A DNA stretch of 64,000 nt from Struthio camelus (Eukaryota > Chordata > Aves > Struthioniformes > Struthionidae): contig NC_090968.1 of NCBI RefSeq assembly GCF_040807025.1, positions 7,119,906-7,183,905 of the forward strand, in the 5' to 3' direction. The position numbers were made by a program, and so were the translations under genes. The notes beneath the pieces were generated by a model. The model did not search any database, was not told the origin of the DNA, and was given only the letters and a program-made list of their open reading frames with translations. The number at the start of each line of letters is the position of its first letter. Positions within the stretch are counted from its first letter, which is position 1. Of the stretch, positions 4,752-64,000 are shown one piece after another.

Positions 4752-7700
4752 CTGCTGGCAAAACCAGAATAGAGTTAACTTCCTTTTACTCTTGCAACCA
4801 CGTAAGTAAATTTTCCAGCAGGCTGCTTTTCAGCCTGCTCACAGCACTTGAGGTAGCTCTGCAGCTTAACACCTTGCAGGCAACAAAAAGATTACCACTA
4901 GAGAAGTAATCAAAAAACCTAAGTTCATGATTTTGGGCTCTGAATGTCTCTATATGCAGCAACGCAGACCCTGTCTTGCTCTGAGCTATCGTGGTGCCCT
5001 GCACATGGCACCTGGTTCTGCCCAGCCCCTTCGACCCCCTCAGTGCAGGTCAACGAGCAGACCCTGACTCACCTTGCCAGTGGTGCTTGTAATCGCAGGT
5101 GCGGGACAGAGCAATGAGGGTGGCGGAAAACAGAGGGAGCAGGAAGGCACAGAGCCGCAGAGCCCGGCCTCTTCGGCCTGGAAGGAAGCAGTGCAGCTTC
5201 CCCGCTAGGTAGAAGGCAGAGAAGGCGAGACCAGCAAAAGCAACTGGAAGAGAAGCGCGTCACTTCAGAAACAGCTCTCGGAGCTTTGAGATAAACATGG
5301 GCCCTCCGCCAGCCGTCATCCTCACCCCTGAACCTTGTTATGGTGGGCAGACTGACGGGCAGTCTGCACTGCCCGTGCAAGTCATGGGAACCGCTGGTGT
5401 GGGGCGAGTGGTGGAGCAGCCCTAGCAGCTAGTACATGGCAAACATCCTTCTTCTCTAGAGCTGCAGACAGCTTCAGACCACATCTTGTGTCCCACTGCT
5501 TTGCAGAGGGAAAGCTGAAGCCGTGAGAGAGGCCAATGAATTTGGCCAAAGTTGCAGTTGCCTGAAAGCAAACCCAATCCACCCTCCCCATGGGCTTCTG
5601 CTCACTGTACTTGGCTGTGTCTGGGGCTGCAACAGATAGGGGATGCAGAAGCACTTACACGAAGCATGTCCACTGGGGAAGCTTTTGCGTCCCTCGGCCA
5701 CTATGCTAGGGTCTCCTGTGCACACCAGCTCAGCGTTCACTCGTCCGTCTGGGAAGCAACGATAAAAGAAGTCCGGACGTGGCCTAGGACAGAGGAGCAC
5801 AGCACATAGCCTGGCGGCATGGGCCGGCCACCCCTGGACAGTGGCTCCGCCCACACACGGTGCTCCTAGCATGGTCCTCAGGAGCCATCTCAACAGCCAG
5901 TGCTTCCATGAAGCACCTATGTCCAAATGCACTTGTCAAACACCTAGTGGAGTTCATTCTACATGTGGCAATGGGAAGGTAACATGACTCAGGCCCTGAG
6001 AAATGCAAAACTGAGCATATCACTGACTTCCAATCCTGCCCAGGCTGGCAGGTTTAGATACGCAAGAACCAGACTGCAGCAGAAAACCATCATCACCCCA
6101 CTGCTGCTCAGGGCAGGGACCAATTAGGTACACCCAGCAGATTAACAATATGCTCATCTTATTCCCTTTATCCAGCAGTGGAGCAAATGTGTTACATGAA
6201 CTGAATTTCCATGTGGCCTCAGTGGAGGTCCCTTCAGACAGCCTGTGGGCACACAGAGTAAAACTTCTGAGGCTGCTGTTCTGCACAGATAACATTTTGC
6301 CATCCAGACCACATAGCCCAGAGATGTAACAGTCTCATCTGTTCCCTGTACACATGCCAAAGCACTCCTCCCAGGTATAGGGAGTGAGCGAGCTTTCTTA
6401 CCTCCCCACAATCAGCTTCAGGGCGTTTGTGAAAACCCCGTTCAGGACCAGAGCGAGGCTGGCAGCTGGAAGAGAGCAGAGAGCCAATGTCAGCATTGTT
6501 CTTATCGCAGCACGTGCCAACCTCTACCCTGACACAGCCTCCCTCAGCGCAAAGAGAAACTACAGGTGGGGCTGACTGCACCTGATAGAAGCCTGAGCTG
6601 GAGGCTAAGTCTGTTTAGCTGGAATCCCAAAGAACAACGCTCCAAGCCTCACTGCTCTTTATGCATGTCCCATACAGCTTTGAGGCATGTTCAGGTACTG
6701 GCAATGCTTGAACTTCAGCTGGAGCCAGAGAGCTCTGCTGCAATGCCCTGGCACAGCACTTGTGCTCTGACAATGGCAAAGGACTCATCTGCCAGACCAA
6801 GGACCCCCAGGTTCACAGCCACAGCGTCAGGGCAGATCTCTGCAAGGTTGCAGCTATTTGGGTTAAGAAGGAGCTCACCTAGGCAGGCTTCCCTTGTATC
6901 TTCTTCATCAGCATTCATGAACAACCTTGCCAGGACAATTAGCAGTAAAGGAGACAGAAAGGAGATGAACTGCCACAAAATGAGAAGACTGTTACGACAT
7001 GTCTATTAATGCAACAGATTCAAGTGCTCTCACCAAAACACAACAACAATTGCTTAAGCAGACTATAAACCTTTCATTCTTCAAAGCCCAGCAGCAATCT
7101 GTCACCTCCAAACACAATTTAATTTTCATCAGAACGCAAAAACCAGCTCCAGCTATATTTGGAGCAAATAACCTCTGCAGCAAACCCAGACTAAACCTGT
7201 GTTCCCCAGAGCATGGCTACTCCTCCGCTGTTTGACATCCAGTGATAACATCTCATGTACAAAAGCAAGTTTATGGGCCATAGGATGCTGGGTGTGCTAC
7301 AGCATGAAAGGAAACAGACAATAAAATAATGCACTAAAAAGCCTCTCTCTGCATCACAGTCCGTCCTGTTGCTTTACCCCCTGAGAGGGTAAGCTCCACA
7401 GAGCAGGGGAGCTTGTCTTCACTTCTCTGAAAAAGGCCCAGCACATCTTCAAGCTGGTATAAGCAATACCACTGGCACAAGAGACTGCTACTTCAGCTGG
7501 CTGCCTTATGTGCAGCTCCCTCTTCCTACTCTGCCTTCAGGTATCCCTTTGCAACATCAGTGACAGTACCTCAACTCTTTCCGCTTTCTAGGCACTTTGT
7601 AAGCACAGAGACTAGTCCTTGATCAGCAACGTCCACACTGTTCACTAGCAAAAATACAGGAGCAGCTGGTTCAGAGAAAAACAGTTATTATTCAAACATC

Positions 7701-42600: not shown

Positions 42601-45600
42601 CTTCTCAGGAACCTCCATCCTTTCCCCAGAGGGGTATCTGTCTCCTTTTGAGGATGCTGAGAGAACATACTGCAGAAGGAAATTTCTGCTCAGGGAGGAA
42701 AGCCCAACCCCTTTGGAAGAATTCCCATTAGCTGTTTCTTAAAATCAAAAGATGAAAAAATTTTGGTTTGCTGTTCCAAGGCTAAGCAGCACTCATTCAG
42801 TTTATCATTCTCATTCTTCTCTACTACCATACTACAAATAACAAAAAACTACAAATAATTTGTTTTAGGCTCTCTTTCCAGTCTCGACCTTCATTACTTG
42901 CTTCAGTGATTCTTCTCCCTCAGATATAATACTTCATAGAACTTAGTGCTTCACAATGAGACCCCTAAAATGCTCTCAGAAGGCAAGCGTTTTCTCATTT
43001 TGCTGATGGAGTTAGCTGAAGCAGTAAAGAAATTTGCTTCCTTTACAAAGGTCATACAGGAATTAAACAGCAAAGTTAGGGAAAACACTCATCCTTATTG
43101 AGAGCCATTCTTTGCTGAACTGTGACCCTTCCAGACTCTCTTCCTTTGATCCTAGTTGCCATTTTTTACATTTGGGCCAAAAAGACATTAAAACGCTTTG
43201 CTCACACACGTACACTGTATTGTCTTCTAAAACAGCTTGCTATCTTCTCTCCACCAGGTACACATCCTTCTAATAGGCTGACTTATTGGGTACTTTAAGT
43301 TGCAGACACTAACAAGTTCAACAGAGGGCAAGTCAGTCAGTCCCAAAGACATCCTCTGTTTCTCAAACACCTGGGCTGGCCATTTGTTATATTAGCCACG
43401 CTTGCTACAATTATTAGGCAAACAAGATGATGTTCGAACCCATTTTTAACTAAGGAGGAAATACCAATTTTGACATTTGAATTTAAGTGCTAGCTTGGTA
43501 AAGTTTAGGCAAGGAGTCCACAGTTTTGCCTACCTGTAGACCCAGAAGTTGTTTCAGGAGAGGACACGTTTTGCACCGTTGCTTTTTCCGTTCTCTGATT
43601 CGATGAAGAATTAAGCTTCTCCTGTCCTTTGACGCTTATTTCTGTTTTGCTACCAACTCCCTTAAAAAGGGGAAAAGATTATGTTAGCCTAGTTATATAC
43701 ATGCTGTTGCTAACAGGCATATTAATCTACTCCTAAGTCTCAGAACAGAAGCCTTCAGTGCTCTTCAATTCAACACACACATGCAACAATATTTACTACT
43801 GAGCGGCTCCCTTGCAGAACTTTCCATCCCTCTCAATCGCTACTTACACACAAGGAAAAAAGAATAAAGTTATTCCAGTGACTTTTCTGAAGATTGCCTT
43901 CTCTATAATGCTTAGGACGAAATAAATACCCTCTCTGGAGGGAGGCAGAAGGAGGCAGAGAAACTCCTAAACCTTTTCCTTACACTGACTGTGAGAGAAG
44001 CTGCTGTTCTTCTTAAGGAAGCTAGGAGGCGGAACTCGTTTTAAAAGTCTATTACACAAAATGTAGTTATTACTTCTTAATATATTATTAACAGTTTTAT
44101 CATCTGTTTCTCACAAATAAATCAATTTTAAGATTTGTCTTGCAGAGACTTGATGGATTATTTCAACTAGAAAAGTGGAATTAGTCAGCTATAATATTCT
44201 GAATGAGTCATCAGCAAGAATGTGATCATCTGTAGGGAGCCCCTCTGCAGCCAGTCAAAATGGCTACTGCTGGAGACTTTATTGTACTGAACTCTTAATT
44301 TCAGTGCAACCCAAAAGACTGTGTTGTCGCATCCTGTCTTTTGATAGATTTAGTCTCTCCAAAGAAAGGTACACATACTGTTAAAGTTTGCTGGACACAA
44401 GTGTAAGCTCTGCAATATGAGACACTTGGGTTCATTCACAGAAAAAGAGGAGCCACTAAACAAAGTACCCACCTTAGTAGAATAAACAAACTGATCGATG
44501 AGTTTTCCATCCCCAGCAGCATTCTGAAGAGCAAAAACCTGTTCAATTTTAACAACTGGAGACATGTTACATTTTTGAAGATCCAAGGTCCCCTTGTGCA
44601 TGGTTATTGAAGCTGGTAAAGATTTTCTAGCTGCAGCAGTTTTCCATGCTATTTTTACAGGAGGTGGCTCCTCTTCTTCCACACTTGACTGCCTCCTTTG
44701 ACTTTGTCTTCGCACCTCAGCATTTGAAGGTGATGCTGCTACCGCATTGGCATGTTCTGCCTGGGTGTTCAACGCTGGCTTAGGTCGTCTGTTCTTCTTA
44801 GCCTCTGATTTAGAAGCAGCAGTCTTTTTGGCTTTTGACAAAACTTCCTCTGGCTCTTTGTCTATATAAATGAACGTGTATTGTTCTATTCTTTCTTCTC
44901 GAGTCATTTTCAGTGCTTTCTCAGCGTGGGCAATACCAATATCCCACTGAGCACGCTCTCTTTGTGGCCTTGGTTTGCGAATCTTAAATAATAAAGACAA
45001 GCAGCTAATTACATTGAATCTCTCTCTCTTTTCCAGATTAGGACAATAAAAAATGGAAGATTTTGGTATGTATAACACACAATATGCAATCTTGAGGTTC
45101 TTTAAATCTCTGACAGCAAATTTAAGTTTGCTAAATTTACAGGTTATCTTTGAAAGGTGGACAGTAAATCTCCTACTTGAACTGCAAGCAGACACTCTAG
45201 CCAGATAGCATGACCATCACCATTATAAGATTCTGTCCGGAGTCACAACTTCACTAAAGACAAGAGTAGGCAGTATTTAAGCCCAGAATTCTGTTTTAAG
45301 TGTTAGAATGAAACCCATTTTTTCTATTTTTTAAATCTTCCATTCCCCACCCCCAAAACGTCCTTTTCCTCCCCATCACTATTTTAATTAGCATATATCC
45401 TGACTTAAGTAGTTCATCCTACACACTAATTGCTGTAACTAACACTTCCTTTCCAATAAAGCAATGGAAAAGAATGCATCAACATTCACATGCAATAATA
45501 ATGATTACACAGGAATTGTTTTTATTTAATATTATAGTATAGATATAAAATTATATCCAATGCCCAGGATGACTACCATCACGAGGAACAGATGCATAGG

Positions 45601-54800: not shown

Positions 54801-57420
54801 TCTTACCATTACAACTTATAAATTACATCATTCGGCTATCCAGTGGATTCCTCTGGCAGCAGTTTAACAACATCTCACTGTGGGCTATGTTAGCAGAAAT
54901 TCTGATCTGTCACCAGGCTGATATGCTCATTTAACTTACATCTTACTTAAGGATTTCTCTGGAGTTTAGTCACAACATCAGATTATTGTGCATAAAGAAC
55001 ATTAGAAACAACACATACAATTCATAAGCCAAACAATTCCATTCAAGAGGCACTAAAATTGTACAACAGCCTAAGCAAAAGGCTGCTTGCTGCCCTAAAA
55101 AACATTTCTCTATCCCACTTTGTCATAATTTTAAGTCTTTCCTTACAAGAGCTTCCAAACCTTAGAAGTTATGATATAAACCAAACTATTTTATTTCACT
55201 AGGAAACCAAGGATTATTTATTCTCTGGGATGTTACAGGCACATATTGGTTGATTACAACGTATTGTATTAGGTTATTCACATTCACCCATTCTAATCCC
55301 ATCTATAAACACTGTTTAAAAATCCACAGTCTAATTTATTAAGTGATTTAACAAAGTCTGTTGACCAGTCTCAGCTGTGTTCCTAATAGGACGAGCTCCT
55401 TGTCATAGGGCTAGGGCATTAAGCAATAGTGACAACACTACAGGCTTCTGTTGTCATGGTCATGTTAGTCGGAGAATACAAAAAGGTGCAGTGTTTGATC
55501 AATATAGCCAGTGAAAGTCCTTTCCTATACACAGTTAAAGGATACTCTTGTCAGGATAGTTTATTTTACTCAGAAGAGCTAAAATAACATTAGTAGCAAA
55601 AACATAGTCTTGCTAGTATAGAGAAGATTACGTGCTGCAGCAGGCTAACTAGTAACCGCCATCTCAGATTATTGAGCATAATTTTGAACACTGCTGATTC
55701 TACTCTTACATTATTGATGAAAGTTTTTCTTACCCCCCAAAAAGAGAGTTTTGTAGGTTTGTACAAAATACAGTAATACGACAGAACTTACCTGTAAGCT
55801 ATACAAACATGCAGCTATCCATTACATTATTGCTCTATCAGGAAGAGTTCAAAGAATGAGAAAAGATAAGGTAATTATGTAATGCCTAAGTGAAATCTCC
55901 CAAGATTCAAGAGTAATCACATTAACTTGCTAAACACAACACCAAATTAATTACCATACCATTTTTTTCCTATAGTGTCTTTTAACGGCCTAGTATTTGT
56001 CCTGCAGTAAATAAAGAAATAAGCCATAGCAAAAATTGGTCACAGTAAAAAGACAAAAAACAAAAAAAAACTATTGCAACTTCAACTGCCAAAGAAAGCA
56101 AAAGATTTACTTGATAACTAAAATAATAATGCATTTCTAATCCTGGACGTAGATTTAGTAGCATATAAACTGTGACCTGTGGATTTCTACAGAATTCAGC
56201 TGAACTTAACACAGTGTCTCTTCTAGCAGACACGTTGGATCGGAGGATTCTTGACAAGCTTCTTTAAAATATCTAGTAAGGCTGACTACTTCCCTATGTA
56301 CCTTTTTAAAGAATTTTTTTTATTGCCAAAAAAAACCCTGTCATCTCTGTCATATGCTTTTTATAAGGCAATTTTTAAGAAGTTTCCCATGGGGAAATGT
56401 AAAGAAACAACTTGGACCGCAGCACTGAAAATGCTATATATATAAAAAAAGTGAATTATCCCAAGAATAAGCTTAGAGTACTCATTTGCTTTTAGAGCCT
56501 CAGGGCTTCAAACGGGAAGTGCGGGGTAAAATTTTTAGTTCCTCGCAATACCAAATATCCTAAGAGTCATAATATGTTCTCATATATTAAAATCATGGTA
56601 ATAACAACTGTAATGGATCTAGCACATGACTTTGAACTTTGGCAAAGTTGAAAACTGAAAAATGCATAACTCTGCTTTCGAAAACAAAGAATACAGTCTT
56701 TGGTCATTATCCTCTACTCTTAGTCGATATCTTAACTTAGCACACTTTTTTTTGGAGGGCAAAATGTTTTCAAGCAGTTCATTAAAAAAGCTGCACGTAA
56801 CTGCAAAAACATTCACTGTGCATCTCTACAAAGAGCTGCTGGCAGACCTAAATGGTCATCAAACAGCTACAATTTTTTCTTCAACTATGATTACGGTTTA
56901 TTTTACACTGCTTTTTAGGTTGGCAAATATCAGAGACCTACGTTATTTTTAGAGGTCTCTTATTTTCTTCAACAAACCGAAAATCCTAAAGCCATACGCC
57001 AATCAAATATATTGACAGTTAAACGAAAGCAGAGCCAGGCACTAAGCGGAGCACAACGCTGTATTATTGCAAAAAATTCCAATCCCACAAAGCTAAGCAA
57101 ACCGTTGACCTGCACGCGGTTCTTGAAAGCGTGTCTTAAAAACCTCTCGAGGCGAGAAGCTGACAAGTATCCGGTTCAGCGGCAAGAGGGGACGGGAGCA
57201 GCTCCGCACCGTTCCAGCGGAGCGCGTCGCAGGCTCCCGCTCGCCCGCGGGGACCTGAAGTTTTTTCCCCACCAAAACAATCTCGGAGCTCGGTAACGCG
57301 GCGGGCTCCGCCAGCCCGGCGCCCTCGGGGGCCGCCCTCGCCCTCGCCCGCCGCCGCCGCGCCCCGCCGCCAACATGGCGGCCCCGGCTCCCGCCCCGCC
57401 GGGCCCGGCCGCCCCCTCAC

Positions 57421-57700
57421 CTTCAGTCTGTTCCATTCTAACCGCCCCCGCCGCGTCCCACCGAGCCCAGCGGAGACAAAGGCCGGCGGGGGGCGGCGGC
57501 GGCGGCGGGCCTCCCGGCCTCCTCCCGCAGCAGCAGGCCGCGACGGAGCCCCGGCCTCGATTTCCGCGCCGCCGCCGCTGGCGCCGGGCTCCGCCCCGGG
57601 AGGCCGCCCGCTCCCGGCGGCCGAGGGGAGGCGCTCGGCGGGGCGCGGGCGACCGCTGGCGGCGGGGGAAGGCGGCGCTGCGTGCCGCTGTGCCCGGGTC
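57421..57700 (-). other. NSD3: NSD3 non-coding exon 1 (3' end at 57421)
   Basis: The donor ACTGAAG|GTGAGGG in the CpG island matches the acceptor at 51815 across a 5.6-kb intron 1. The exon's 5' limit is not visible; a start between about 57.5 and 57.9 kb is inferred from promoter motifs. An upstream ATG lies at 57436-57434. Confidence 0.65.
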
Positions 57701-57859
57701 CCGGCCCCGCTCGCGCGCCCGCCGCCTCCGCCCCCCGCCGCTGGCTCGCCCGCCCGCCCGCTCCCTCCCCCCGCCGCCGCCGCCGCGCTCCGCGCAGGCG
57801 CGCGCACGCGCCGCCGGCAGCCCGCGCGCCCATTGGCCGCCGGGCGGCGCCCGCCGCGA

Positions 57860-57879
57860 GGCACGCTGGGGGCTGTAGT
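57860..57879 (-). promoter_or_regulatory. ZNF143-type element
   Basis: The minus strand reads ACTACAGCCCCCAGCGTGCC, close to the ZNF143/Staf consensus ACTACAAYTCCCAGCATGCC as I recall it. It lies upstream of the inferred NSD3 start. Confidence 0.55.
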
Positions 57880-58199
57880 CCCGCTCCGGGTGGGCGGGCG
57901 GGCGGGCGCGCTGCCCCCCCACGGCGGCGGCGTCAGAGCGGGCACCCCACCGCCGCCGCCGCCGCCTGGCGCGCGGAGCCCCCGCGGCCCGGGCGCTCTG
58001 CCCAGCCCAACTCCAACGCCGGGCCCCGCGCCGCCCCGCGGTTACGAAACGAGCGCGGCAGCGGCCGCGGTGCGCCGCGTCCGCTGCGCTGCTGCCGGGG
58101 GGGCAAAAGGCCTGGGGGAGGAAAACAACAAAACAAAACCAACAAATTCTGCTGGAGAGATTGCAGCGTGCCTCCCAGGCTCTAGCTTCAGCTGCTGAG

Positions 58200-61100
58200 G
58201 TTTGGCATCTGGGTCGGCGCGAGGAAGAGAAGGCTGTCATCCCTCAATAGTTTCTAATCCTGTTTTGGCTGAAAAATTATGCACCGAAATGTTTGCAATT
58301 AATTCCCCTCCTCCACCACCCTGAAGTCTTTCCTTTGCAGAACACAACTGAACTACACGCAATAAATCTTTCCTGCAGCAAAAACATTAACATGCAAGAA
58401 AAAGAAAAGAAAATGGAAAGCAAGAAAAGCACAAGAGAATGGAAAGTAAACAAGATGGAAAGATAGTATGACGTCTGTTACCAGAGGAAAAAAGTCAGAT
58501 AATGAAACAAGATGAATTAGGTGGAAAGAGAGACATGATCCAACATGAAAGAGGAAACCGAAGAGATACGAGCTTTACGCGTCACTGAACAAAGACTGAG
58601 CAACGATTTCCAAATTTATGGCATTTCCCATTGCCCAGACCCAGAGGCTCAGAGCCCACAACAACGAGGCGTTTTTCTTGTCTACACTCTTGGGGGGAGG
58701 GGGTGAGAAATTGCTGTAATAAAGTGAATTTAAAAAGCAATTCTCCTCCTACTTAAACACAATAAGTCATCAAAAAAATGGAGGTGACCTAGAAAAGGCT
58801 TTCTCCCTCTCTTCTCCCTTCTGTAAATTCTGCAGCCCTAAATGCTTAGCATTACTGGGGGGTGGGGGAGGGTACTGATGCTCTCACAGCTGAAGTAGTC
58901 ATGGGGTGGACATTTATTTTCTTTGATTCCTTTCGGCAACTAAGCAACATGCTGACAGAAATTCTTGTTTTCCTCCATTTTGCTCCAATACAGTTTTCTT
59001 TCACATTAGTTTTTCCTGCTCCTGATTGGCTTACATTTCAAGTACGGTGGGCTCTTGAAGCAATCTGTTGGTTAGGAAACTGCACAGAGCTAAAAACAAA
59101 TCCAGATCAGGGAAGCACTATCACAGGAACTTACCTTTTTCTGCCCCTAAGGAAGACTGGATAATCCATGCAGTGGCTAGCACATGGAATGAGGGAAAAA
59201 TAAAATGCAGTTTTTGCTCTCCAAGACAAGTATTAGCCATCTACTGGTAAAGAAAATACTGGGCTTTTGAAAAATATCAACCTTTCCAAGGAACAAAGAT
59301 TGAGTATCAAGTGAGTTTTTAACTTTAACTCATGCAAATCTAGGTGAAAGCAAAGTTCAGCGGAGCAGAGTTTTATTAGCTGCTCTCTAGCATAAGAAGT
59401 TAATTTAAAGAAACACCTCAATATGCAGAGTTTATGTGCCCCAAAATAATCTTTACTCATGCTTCATGCAAGGACTACAAGAAAGATAACTAGCCACTAG
59501 GAGAAGAACACACATTCGTGAGTAATTAGTGATCCACATTCGGGATCACCATGAGCTACCTACCGGTTCTTGACACCACTTTGACGCTCTGAATATGCGA
59601 AGCAGCAGCACTTTTGTTCCCCTGCGGGCACTCAGGGGATGGGGTTCTTTGCCTCACTGCCAGACTCACATTTCCAGTTCACAGGGGATCATCACAAGCA
59701 GCGCAGGCCAACAAGAAACCGCAGCTACATCAGTAACAGACCCCAGCATTCCTCAAGGGCCACCCACACGGGTGCTTTACAACAACCCGAAAGACACATG
59801 CGAGAAAAAACCATTCTCGAACAATCCAAGAGGTGTTCTGTTCTTCCTGAAGAATTTTCCCCTTTAAATAAAGTATGATAATTGCTACCAGAGGTTGTGC
59901 CCCAAATCGTACTGTGTACATGTTTAAGAAGAGTTCAAAACTGCTGCCTGCTCCTGGACAAACAGATCCATGCCTGGTATCATTCCCAAAAAGGGTGGCA
60001 TTGCTAGCCCTATGGAAGCTAAGGGGGCTCTGAACAGAAGTTTAGAAGTTGCAACTCTAACAAGGCTTTAAGCAGGCACTGTCAGGCAAGATGCTCTGAC
60101 CCCCTCGCACGCTTTAGTGAATTTCCTAAAGGCTCAGCACTTAAAATAGCATGGGGACGTACACATATCAGCATCCAAAAGAAAAAAAGAGGGAAGGGAA
60201 AAAAAAGGAGTTTTAGCCCTCATTCATGCAGAAAAAAATCTTGAAAACAGAATTCAAGAATGTCTGAATCACAGTTCTGAATACTGAAAATTAGAAAGTA
60301 AATAAACACATCCAACACTGACTCTGGTTTGTAGGTTTTCAGAAGGTATTAACCAGCTCACAAATTCACATTGAAATATGTCTCTGATGAGGCAAAATAA
60401 GCTTTTTCAAGTTCTTGAAAGGTTTAGAGTAGTACAGTGATGTAAATCTTCCACTCTAGCATGATGAACAAAGGGTATCTTCTTGAGCTGTAATCAGAGG
60501 GTAGGAGTTTGTGGCTATTCAGCTACTCTTGATTTCCTATTCTGTTAACTCCTCAAGCAAGAGCCTCCCAAGGAAAAAAATTCTCTTCTGTGATCCCAGG
60601 GGAGCAACTAGCTTAGCAGAACAAACTTTGGTAGAATAGGGCACACAGGAACTAAACTGTACTATTACACAGTCTGCACTAACAATGCAGAAATGCTTTT
60701 GAGAGTAAAAAAGGATTCGGATTAATGGTGGTGTACCCCCTGCAGAATTTAAAGGGCTTGGAGACCAGCCCTTTATGGGAAATGATCTTTCCAACCAAGG
60801 GAAAACATAGCGATGTAACGAGACCTCTGGTGGCAGACCTTGGGAGCTTTCTTCCTCCTTTCTTAGGAATCGTTTTACATTTTATTTTTACTTTTAAAAA
60901 ATATCGTTCACTTGTTGAGGCACTGGTTAGCAAAGTTGCCAATGAGTCGAGGGTATTTTGCATTGTGGGTGATATAGTATTTTCTCACGTTAGTCTCTCA
61001 AACACAGAAGCCATTCCAAGAGAGACTAAGTCTTCTGTCATCCACCGAGAACATTTCTCCAGCTGCCTACTTGTTTCATCATAGCTGCAGATCGATAGTA

Positions 61101-61481: not shown

Positions 61482-61609
61482 CTTCTGCCAAAACTCGAGC
61501 CGAAGCTTTGTAGGATCCAGCAGGAGCAAGCAGCAGAACGAAAAAATCACTTCCTGCCAGGATCTTGTCTTCATACATGTCTCCGAGTTTATCTTACGCA
61601 CTCCTGGCA
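61482..61609 (-). ncRNA. Predicted minus-strand exon (distal NSD3 5' exon or divergent lncRNA)
   Basis: A 128-nt candidate internal exon. The acceptor is a good pyrimidine tract ending TTATTTACTTAG at 61610; the donor is CAGAAG|GTAAGA at 61481. An ATG at 61578-61576 opens 32 codons into the donor. An upstream GC-rich exon ending at 61841, TCTCCG|GTGAGG, could feed it. Downstream the only known minus-strand acceptor is NSD3 exon 2. Function inferred, unproven. Confidence 0.4.
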
Positions 61610-61679
61610 CTAAGTAAATAACAATAAAAAGGCACAGATGAAGATCTTTCAACAGCAGACTTCCTCTTTCCTTGCCGTT

Positions 61680-62400
61680 CGCGCAGAAGGCTCTGCCATT
61701 TCAACGGAGCTCGCCGCCCCAACGCCGTAGCTTGAAGCTAGATTCAGCGGGAACACGAACAGCCGCCAGAGGAGGGAAGGGCTCCCCGGAGCCCCCGGCT
61801 GTGGCTCCCTCCCGTCCCGGGCCGGGCGGGCGCACCTCACCGGAGAGGAACCGGGGCGCCCCAGGGGTGGAGGGGCCGGCCGGGCCCGCAGGCCTCGCAC
61901 CTGGGGCGCACCGCAGGCGGGCCGGGCGAGGCCCAGGCAGGCTACTGGAGGCCAGCGTAGGCCCAGGAGCGGTCCCCCACCGACCCCAGGCCGCCCCGCC
62001 CCTTCCCGGCTCTGACGACACACCTAGCCCCTCCCCCCGCCCCACCCCCAGCCTCGCGGTGGCGTCACGCACCGGCCCGTGACATCATCCAGAAGGCCCG
62101 CCCCTCCGGCACGTCCGCACCGCCGCCCCCGAAGCCAATGAGCGGCCCTCTCCAGGGTCACCTCAGGTCGAGCCCCGCCCCTGCCCTGCTCCCATTGGCT
62201 GGTTTCTGACAGGGCTCCAGTTCAGTGTTCCGATTGGCTTCTGCTGAAGGCGCTGTGACGCTACGCTATGGCGTGATGGCGGGAGAACCATAGAGCGCCG
62301 CGTACCGGGCTAGAGCGCCCAGGGCAGGGCGTTGATGGGACGCCGCGGGCGGACTGAGGCCGTGGCCGGAGCCTTTGCGGGAAGCGGGGCCGGCGGTGAG
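61680..62400. promoter_or_regulatory. LETM2: LETM2 CpG island, probably bidirectional promoter
   Basis: A CpG-rich block with three CCAAT boxes: plus 62135-62139, minus 62198-62194 and minus 62237-62233, a typical NF-Y array. A CRE-like TGACATCA lies at 62080-62087. LETM2 would start near 62260, with a donor at 62396; a minus-strand donor at 61840 suggests transcription the other way as well. No TATA box is seen. Confidence 0.7.
62260..62395 (+). other. LETM2: LETM2 non-coding exon 1 (approximate 5' end)
   Basis: GC-rich sequence downstream of the CCAAT array ends at donor GGCG|GTGAGG. Joined to the acceptor at 63849, the ATG at 62335 reads only to a TGA in exon 2, so it would be an upstream ORF. 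The 5' limit is inferred. Confidence 0.5.
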
Positions 62401-62430
62401 GGGGGCCGGGGGGGTGAGGGGGGTGAGGGG

Positions 62431-63596
62431 ACCAGGACGCCTGGGTCCAGCTGGGGAGGGGGGGACCCGGCACCAGGACACCTGGGTCTGGCCCAGCTTT
62501 GGGGCGGGGGTGGGGGGGGGATCAGCATCAGGACACCTGGGTCTGGCCCAGCTTGGGGAGGGGGGGGGGGACGACAGACCCGGCACCAGGACACCTGGGT
62601 CTGGCCCAGCTTTTGGGGGGGGGGGGACAGACCCGGCACCAGGACACCTGGGTCTGGCCCAGCTTTGGGGAGGGGGGGGGATCAGCAGCAGGACACCTGG
62701 GTCTGGCCCAGCTTGGGGAGGGGGGATCAGCATCAGGACACCTGGGTCTGGCCCAGCTTTTGGGGGGGGGGGGGACGACGGACCCGGCACCAGGACACCT
62801 GGGTCTGGCCCAGCTTTGGGGGGGGGGGGGATCAGCACCAGGACACCTGGGTCTGGCCCAGCTTGGGGAGGGGGGATCAGCATCAGGACACCTGGGTCTG
62901 GCCCAGCTTTTTGGGGGGGGGGGGGGGGACGACGGACCCGGCACCAGGACACCTGGGTCTGGCCCAGCTTTTGGGGGGGGGGGGGGGACGACGGACCCGG
63001 CACCAGGACACCTGGGTCTGGCCCAGCTTGGGGGGGGGGGGATCAGCACCAGGACACCTGGGTCTGGCCCAGCTTGGGGAGGGGGGATCAGCATCAGGAC
63101 ACCTGGGTCTGGCCCAGCTTTTGGGGGGGGGGGGGGGGGACGACGGACCCGGCACCAGGACACCTGGGTCTGGCCCAGCTTGGGGGGGGGGGGGATCAGC
63201 ACCAGGACACCTGGGTCTGGCCCAGCTTGGGGAGGGGGGATCAGCATCAGGACACCTGGGTCTGGCCCAGCTTTTTGGGGGGGGGGGGGGGGGACGACGG
63301 ACCCGGCACCAGGACACCTGGGTCTGGCCCAGCTTGGGGAGGGGGGATCAGCATCAGGACACCTGGGTCTGGCCCAGCTTTGGGGGGGGGGGGGGGGGGG
63401 GACAGACCCGGCACCAGGACACCTGGGTCTGGCCCAGCTTGGGGGGAGGGGGGATCAGCATCAGGACACCTGGGTCTGGCCCAGCTTTGGGGGGGGGGGG
63501 GGGATCAGCATCAGGACACCTGGGTCTGGCCCAGCTTGGGGAGGGGGGATCAGCAGCAGGACACCTGGGTCTGGCCCAGCTTTGGGGGGGGGGGGT
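62431..63596 (+). repeat. G-rich minisatellite, about 22 copies, in LETM2 intron 1
   Basis: The core ACACCTGGGTCTGGCCCAGC recurs about 22 times, after one diverged copy at 62431. Spacers are G-runs of 5 to 20 and one of two linkers, GACGACGGACCCGGCACC or GATCAGCAYCAGG, giving units of about 45-60 bp. Three successive blocks at 62775, 62988 and 63139 repeat as a 151-154 bp three-unit pattern. The G-runs suit G-quadruplex formation on the coding strand. Absence of stops makes long false ORFs in all plus frames. Confidence 0.97.
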
Positions 63597-63849
63597 GCTG
63601 GTTGGGGGACACCTCCCGAGGAGCTGCCGCACAGCCCCACCTCTGGTCACACCTTCCCCTCTCACTGACCACAGCGGCACAGCAGAAAGGGTGATGCGCG
63701 AGAGGCACCGCAGTGCCCTGCCAGGGCTCGGCCCCCCGGCACGGAGGGACATCTCCCGCGGACGGCCGCAACGCTTACCGCCAGCTCCCTGAGGCTCTGA
63801 CACCCAGCTCGCCCCTTGCTGTTGGAAATGACCATCCCTCTGCTCTCAG

Positions 63850-63928
63850 TGTCCAGCCAGAGCTGATAACTCCATGGCACGATGGCCTTCTACAGCTGCA
63901 GCATGCTGTGTGCAATAGCCAGGACAAG
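63850..63928 (+). CDS. LETM2: LETM2 exon 2, start codon (gene continues beyond the window)
   Basis: LETM2 is a mitochondrial inner-membrane LETM-domain protein. The acceptor CCCTCTGCTCTCAG ends at 63849; ATG at 63882-63884 opens MAFYSCSMLCAIARTR, matching the LETM2 N-terminus (MAFYS...AIARTR) as I remember it, a mitochondrial targeting start. The donor ACAAG|GTAAGA at 63929 leaves phase 2. An out-of-frame ATG at 63874 overlaps the start and ends at 63918. An alternative acceptor at 63675, after GACCACAG, could lengthen the 5'UTR. The LETM domain lies right of the window. Confidence 0.85.
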
Positions 63929-64000
63929 GTAAGATAGAGAATGCTTAATTTTTTACATATACTTCATGCATGAGCATTCCTTCCTGTTAGTTCTCATACT

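Follow-up and report, generated by a model that had tools for sequence, protein, structure and literature searches.

The window, i.e., the whole 64-kb stretch of Struthio camelus DNA analysed here, carries exons of NSD3 on its minus strand and, to the right of them, a minisatellite array inside the predicted first intron of LETM2. In a Pfam scan of eight minus-strand stretches, four matched a family at or above the family cut-off (AWS, SET, PHD and the NSD Cys-His rich domain) and the other four had no match. Among solved sequences, the AWS stretch came closest to NSD3 (E 5e-59); NSD2 (E 7e-47) and further H3 lysine-36 methyltransferases followed. The gene containing the array is predicted to be LETM2, based on this sequence-identified neighbour and on the reading frame of predicted exon 2, whose first 15 residues appear to resemble the start of human LETM2. 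We take the region to be placed on chicken chromosome 22; a literature search for FGFR1 and the chicken chromosome 22 placement found no paper. At 57164-58250, another GC-rich segment has long open frames in either orientation and may comprise the NSD3 promoter and first exon; the tandem-repeat finder (TRF) detected a short 36-bp repeat there (57709-57777, 1.9 copies) and no long array. At 5474-5935, a minus-strand open frame without a Pfam match at E 0.001 contains what is presumably a lipid phosphate phosphatase motif and probably belongs to PLPP5, as gene order would predict. The window had no Rfam match at gathering score.

The region in front of the array is CpG-rich, with observed/expected ratios of 0.65–1.03 in the four 200-bp steps of 61601-62400 vs 0.04–0.26 in the six steps of 62401-63600. 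Splice sites were predicted by a simple frequency-based score. Within 62251-63990, the best acceptor was 63675 (3.59; next 63857, 2.45) and the best donor 63929 (10.83), and the translation from the 63882 start codon is MAFYSCSMLCAIART, to two bases before this donor. Short G-rich repeats (62386-62430) take in the predicted end of exon 1 and copy its predicted donor, giving equal-scoring donors at 62396, 62414 and 62423 (8.12 each). The first of these three candidates is 35 bp before 62431, matching the distance of about 35 bp between LETM2 exon 1 donor and array start given in the initial annotation. Its description of a minisatellite adjoining the LETM2 promoter fits as well, in that the array is found in the predicted first intron, behind the predicted CpG-rich promoter. 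With donor 62396 and acceptor 63675 the predicted intron measures 1,279 bp, 91% of which is made up by the array plus its edge unit; the array runs from 35 bp to 1.2 kb past the first predicted exon 1 donor. The coordinates of all features are compiled in Table 1.

Table 1. Features in and around the intronic array (positions within the window).
Feature	Position	Strand	Basis or comparison
Promoter region (CpG-rich) and exon 1 of LETM2 (predicted, non-coding)	61601..62395	+	CpG observed/expected
Short G-rich tandem repeats, periods 18 and 9	62386..62430	+	TRF 62386-62423 (2.2 copies), 62395-62430 (4.0 copies)
Diverged edge unit (unit 0)	62431..62473	+	CGCCTGG replaces CACCTGG; begins ACCAGGACGCCTGGGTC...
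Minisatellite array, 22 units	62474..63596	+	Core, variable T-run, G-block of 11-20 bases, A/B/C/D linker (21 units); TRF, core scan, unit map
Seven-unit block copy 1 (units 2-8), 355 bp	62529..62883	+	vs copy 2
A-C-B block 1	62775..62928	+	vs blocks 2 and 3: 0 mismatches, 3 and 2 gap columns
Seven-unit block copy 2 (units 9-15), 364 bp	62884..63247	+	vs copy 1
A-C-B block 2	62988..63138	+	vs block 3: 0 mismatches, 3 gap columns
A-C-B block 3	63139..63292	+	Pairwise alignment with blocks 1 and 2
Predicted LETM2 exon 2	63675..63928	+	Acceptor 63675, start codon 63882, donor 63929

That this is a tandem array is plain. The core 26-mer CAGGACACCTGGGTCTGGCCCAGCTT occurs 22 times in the 64-kb window, with starts from 62474 to 63557, and 22 of 22 occurrences have 0 mismatches. 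The initial count of about 22 units was thus correct, whereas the constant core is 26 bp long and not 27 bp. In every unit, CAGC is followed by 2–5 T, two of which are counted within the 26-bp core, and then by a G-block of 11–20 bases, which is sometimes interrupted by A, and in unit 1 by C and T; 21 of the 22 units also have a linker. With 21 complete units of 45–62 bp each (three of them 61–62 bp) among its 22, the array is in the size class of minisatellites, i.e., tandem units of about 10–60 bp. TRF returned 26 rows for the window; the top score, 1648, belonged to a row with a 364-bp period over the array, and rows other than those of the array had at most 4 copies each, except for a T-run with 39. 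The diverged edge unit begins at 62431, where the initial annotation had set the array start. In a local alignment to the core, 16 of its 17 aligned bases are identical, and it has CG where the array units have CA. The last 2 kb of the window, with the array inside, have 69% GC; 28 of the 32 two-kb bins of the window have 35–50%. All three plus-strand frames across 62431-63596 are free of stops. These frames were given no weight as a sign of a protein-coding array, since a repeat unit without a stop triplet yields them by itself.

The unit map bore out the four linker classes A, B, C and D proposed initially. Over 21 units their order is B a x D B A C B A A C B A C B A B x B B D, followed by the array end, where a (GACGACAGACCCGG) and x (GACAGACCCGG) denote A linkers with small changes; with these pooled into A, the classes count A 8, B 8, C 3 and D 2 (n = 21). 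The T-run tracks the linker that comes after it, as at least four T were found in 6 of 8 A units (4–5 T) vs none of the 13 others (P 0.0005). Interruption of the G-run by A also differed by class (6 of 8 B units, 2 of 2 D units, 1 of 8 A units, 0 of 3 C units), and the 45-bp B unit is present in five letter-for-letter identical copies. The parts of a unit, from core and T-run to G-run and linker, thus tend to stay associated, and because T-run length goes with the following linker, unit plus linker behaves as a single piece.

Three A-C-B blocks had been reported to start at 62775, 62988 and 63139. The coordinates agree with ours, and the blocks differ pairwise by 0 mismatches and 2–3 gap columns. 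Of the checks proposed in the initial annotation, TRF recovered the array, and the unit-by-unit comparison the linker classes and these blocks. Unit similarity peaks at a spacing of seven, with modest statistical support, in the pattern A, A-C/D-B, A-C-B, with the three-unit block nested within; the mean unit distance, with G-runs capped, was 4.5 at lag 7 vs 8.35 at lag 1. Units 2–8 align to units 9–15 with 348 identities, 3 mismatches and 17 gap columns, and a third seven-unit stretch (units 16–22) fits less well (318 or 323 identities, 9–13 mismatches, 44–51 gap columns). If D is the counterpart of C, the three-unit block would occur four times (units 3–5, 6–8, 10–12 and 13–15). With no mismatches among the three-unit blocks and three between seven-unit copies 1 and 2, the array has the makeup of a higher-order repeat, at modest significance.

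Chance expectations were obtained by shuffling the order of the units. The exact triplet A-C-B occurring at least three times had P 0.003, for a pattern picked after looking; for any triplet of three different classes occurring at least three times P was 0.016, and for any triplet whatever 0.32. Label matches at lag 7 were 9 of 14 (P 0.0038) and at lag 3 8 of 18 (P 0.098), with P 0.016 for the best of lags 1–10. Edit distances with G-runs capped at 7 gave P 0.003 for lag 7, 0.010 for lag 3 and 0.027 for the best of lags 1–11, and full edit distances gave 0.013, 0.086 and 0.117 (best of lags), respectively. In both distance versions lag 7 thus had the lowest P and lag 3 the second lowest, and lag 7 was also ahead of lag 3 on labels. 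The best adjacent block match anywhere in the array was again between seven-unit blocks, which agreed in 6 of their 7 labels (P 0.034). A cyclic A-C-B order had P 0.0005, likewise chosen after looking. Among the tests that allow for the choice of pattern, four lie at P 0.016–0.034 and two others at 0.12 and 0.32. The higher-order pattern is therefore likely to be real, with modest support.

The expansion by three-unit blocks after unit divergence suggested initially holds in one respect: the unit order, with these modest statistics, supports the duplication of blocks after the units had diverged. Three as the main period does not hold, seven being the strongest. As the strongest period is seven with a nested three, the expectation of alleles differing by multiples of three units is too narrow. 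The simplest history would be a three-unit duplication nested in a seven-unit duplication, with single-unit events around them.

We searched for relatives of the core elsewhere. An ungapped scan of the window, allowing up to 6 mismatches on the plus strand and up to 8 on the minus strand, found no copy outside the array. The best matches of a core 30-mer outside the array were 5001-5026 (score 27) and 43367-43381 (score 25), and shuffled queries reached a maximum of 26 in a set of 60 and of 24 in a separate set of 15. This margin is too small to accept either match as a dispersed relative, and a weak relative at 5001-5026 is still conceivable. The 16-mer of a CR1-type tail was absent from the window in an exact search of both strands. 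A core 20-mer had 0 matches in viral contigs. A degenerate 17-mer matched 9 stretches there, with one match each, and at least 117 stretches in prokaryote genomes, with one match each among the matches listed; by our own estimate, the prokaryote count is about at chance level. Neither the viral nor the prokaryote collection is known to be intended for avian sequence, and the two scans therefore say nothing about relatives in birds. In the literature, the letters of the core motif led to no paper with a title on avian repeats among the matches listed. Of the papers listed on combinations of LETM2, birds and tandem repeats (15 of 2,190), one contained LETM2.

In our view, the array is quite probably a minisatellite of local origin within predicted LETM2 intron 1; it would have spread by block copying and most likely serves no function itself. 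In favour of local growth are the core, perfect in all 22 units beside varied linkers, and the lack of another copy in the window at the limits used. The diverged unit at the 5′ edge of the array speaks for local homogenisation, as such units are usual for arrays homogenised from within. Against this reading stand the best-of-lags result on full distances (P 0.117), the any-triplet result (P 0.32) and the poorer third seven-unit stretch.

Growth may have begun when a G-rich stretch right behind the promoter turned into a short tandem repeat. The units then diverged in their linkers, a divergence seen directly in the unit map. Multi-unit blocks would next have been copied in tandem, as the unit order suggests; block sizes of about three and about seven fit best, and the direction and timing of these steps are those we infer. 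Stalling of replication forks or breakage at the long G-runs, repaired from a misaligned copy, probably drove the copying. The unequal exchange proposed in the initial annotation is one candidate process, and the same pattern could equally be left by slippage during replication, by break repair or by gene conversion. G is biased to one strand of the array (G skew 0.29), and 29% of its 25-bp windows exceed a G-quadruplex propensity of +1.5 vs 1.2% beyond 1.5 on either strand for the whole window; a strict G-quadruplex definition with four runs, on the other hand, applies to only 158 of 1,166 bp. A hairpin-driven mechanism was set aside, as single units, folded as DNA, were not clearly more foldable than shuffled sequence (3 units on both strands, 6 folds; z +0.97 to +1.31 for the plus and −0.53 to −0.78 for the minus strand) in a folding program that leaves G-quadruplexes out of its model. 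Additional meiotic breaks may come from the CpG island next to the array, with meiotic conversion from misaligned copies, since birds, being without PRDM9, recombine preferentially near CpG islands. In the excerpted part of a zebra finch study, recombination overlaps CpG islands above expectation, birds are described as lacking PRDM9, and non-crossover conversion tracts have a mean near 32 bp (PMC12047795).

Alternatively, the linker classes might follow one another by chance, in an array grown solely unit by unit. The frequencies of any triplet (P 0.32) and the best of lags on full distances (P 0.117) would be compatible with such a history, but lag 7 on labels (P 0.0038), the best of lags on labels (P 0.016) and on distances with capped G-runs (P 0.027), the tandem-block match anywhere in the array (P 0.034) and the cyclic A-C-B order (P 0.0005, chosen after looking) all speak against it, and we regard it as very improbable. 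The pattern might also, wholly or in part, have been created during assembly, with hard-to-read G-runs and collapsed or duplicated repeats. Every unit has a G-block of 11–20 bases, and such avian repeats are reported to sequence poorly in the excerpts of PMC6792250. However, the units differ in several markers (T-run, A inside the G-run, linker), and the copied blocks differ slightly, whereas a plain misjoin would more likely have produced exact copies; an artefact appears quite unlikely to us.

A functional explanation would make the array a binding-site cluster, located behind the promoters of LETM2 and NSD3, that tunes transcription or splicing, its core being under selection. Each unit contains a putative E-box (CACCTG) and a G-run resembling those that zinc-finger factors bind. 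The core is unchanged in 22 of 22 units although the linkers vary, the array counts 22 CACCTG vs 31, in either orientation, across the rest of the window, and its position 35 bp to 1.2 kb past the first predicted exon 1 donor would suit such a role. However, unit copying multiplies any motif contained in the unit, making the count no evidence, and the diverged edge unit has CGCCTG in place of the E-box. A perfectly constant core beside varied linkers could reflect selection on the core, yet recent copying accounts for it no less well. Overall, a cluster of binding sites is unlikely. The more far-reaching proposal that selection holds the core and that the array acts within LETM2 intron 1 as a regulatory element of variable length seems highly unlikely; if true, array size, altered in steps of whole blocks, would govern transcription or decide which of the three tandem donors is used, and CpG-island recombination would keep producing regulatory alleles.

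The preferred reading, a locally grown intronic minisatellite spread by block copying, has parallels in known systems. Hypervariable minisatellites such as human MS32 were mapped by their variant repeats, and allelic variation and germline mutation have been measured there. The array described here resembles MS32 in its units of tens of bases and in variant units that trace duplications, and is known from one assembled sequence.

A closer parallel comes from chicken introns, in which locally grown repeats with high length variation are described as “sequence stuttering” in the excerpts of PMC12954441. According to the same excerpts, variable introns are, apart from the dot chromosomes, also slightly elevated on chromosomes 22, 25 and 33, and the authors see possible causes in meiotic non-crossover conversion and in replication stress where DNA is GC-rich or has G-quadruplexes (PMC12954441). 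As there, the predicted LETM2 intron is filled by a locally grown, imperfect repeat with units of tens of bases that is confined to the intron: local imperfect repeats make up 91% of predicted intron 1, with no convincing copy elsewhere in the window. Sequence stuttering is described, in the part of the source used, mainly on dot chromosomes and partly with copied exon sequence (PMC12954441). The window differs in its other tandem rows, with at most 4 copies, or 39 for a T-run. The G-rich repeat at 62386-62430, short and at an exon that is only predicted, may be a minor instance of the copying of exon edges described for chicken introns in these excerpts (PMC12954441). Avian introns are further reported, in part of PMC6792250, to carry tandem repeats with G-quadruplex motifs that sequence poorly; the array shares the intronic tandem repeats with G-quadruplex-prone runs, whereas the genes are reported there as GC-rich and 28 of the 32 two-kb bins here have 35–50% GC. 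The array shows ordinary behaviour for a known kind of repeat and leaves the general understanding unchanged. It provides a readable example of how an intron is filled with a GC-rich repeat, as its distinct linker classes make the duplication steps traceable, and, if variable between individuals, it would be a good marker and a test of array growth by CpG-island recombination.
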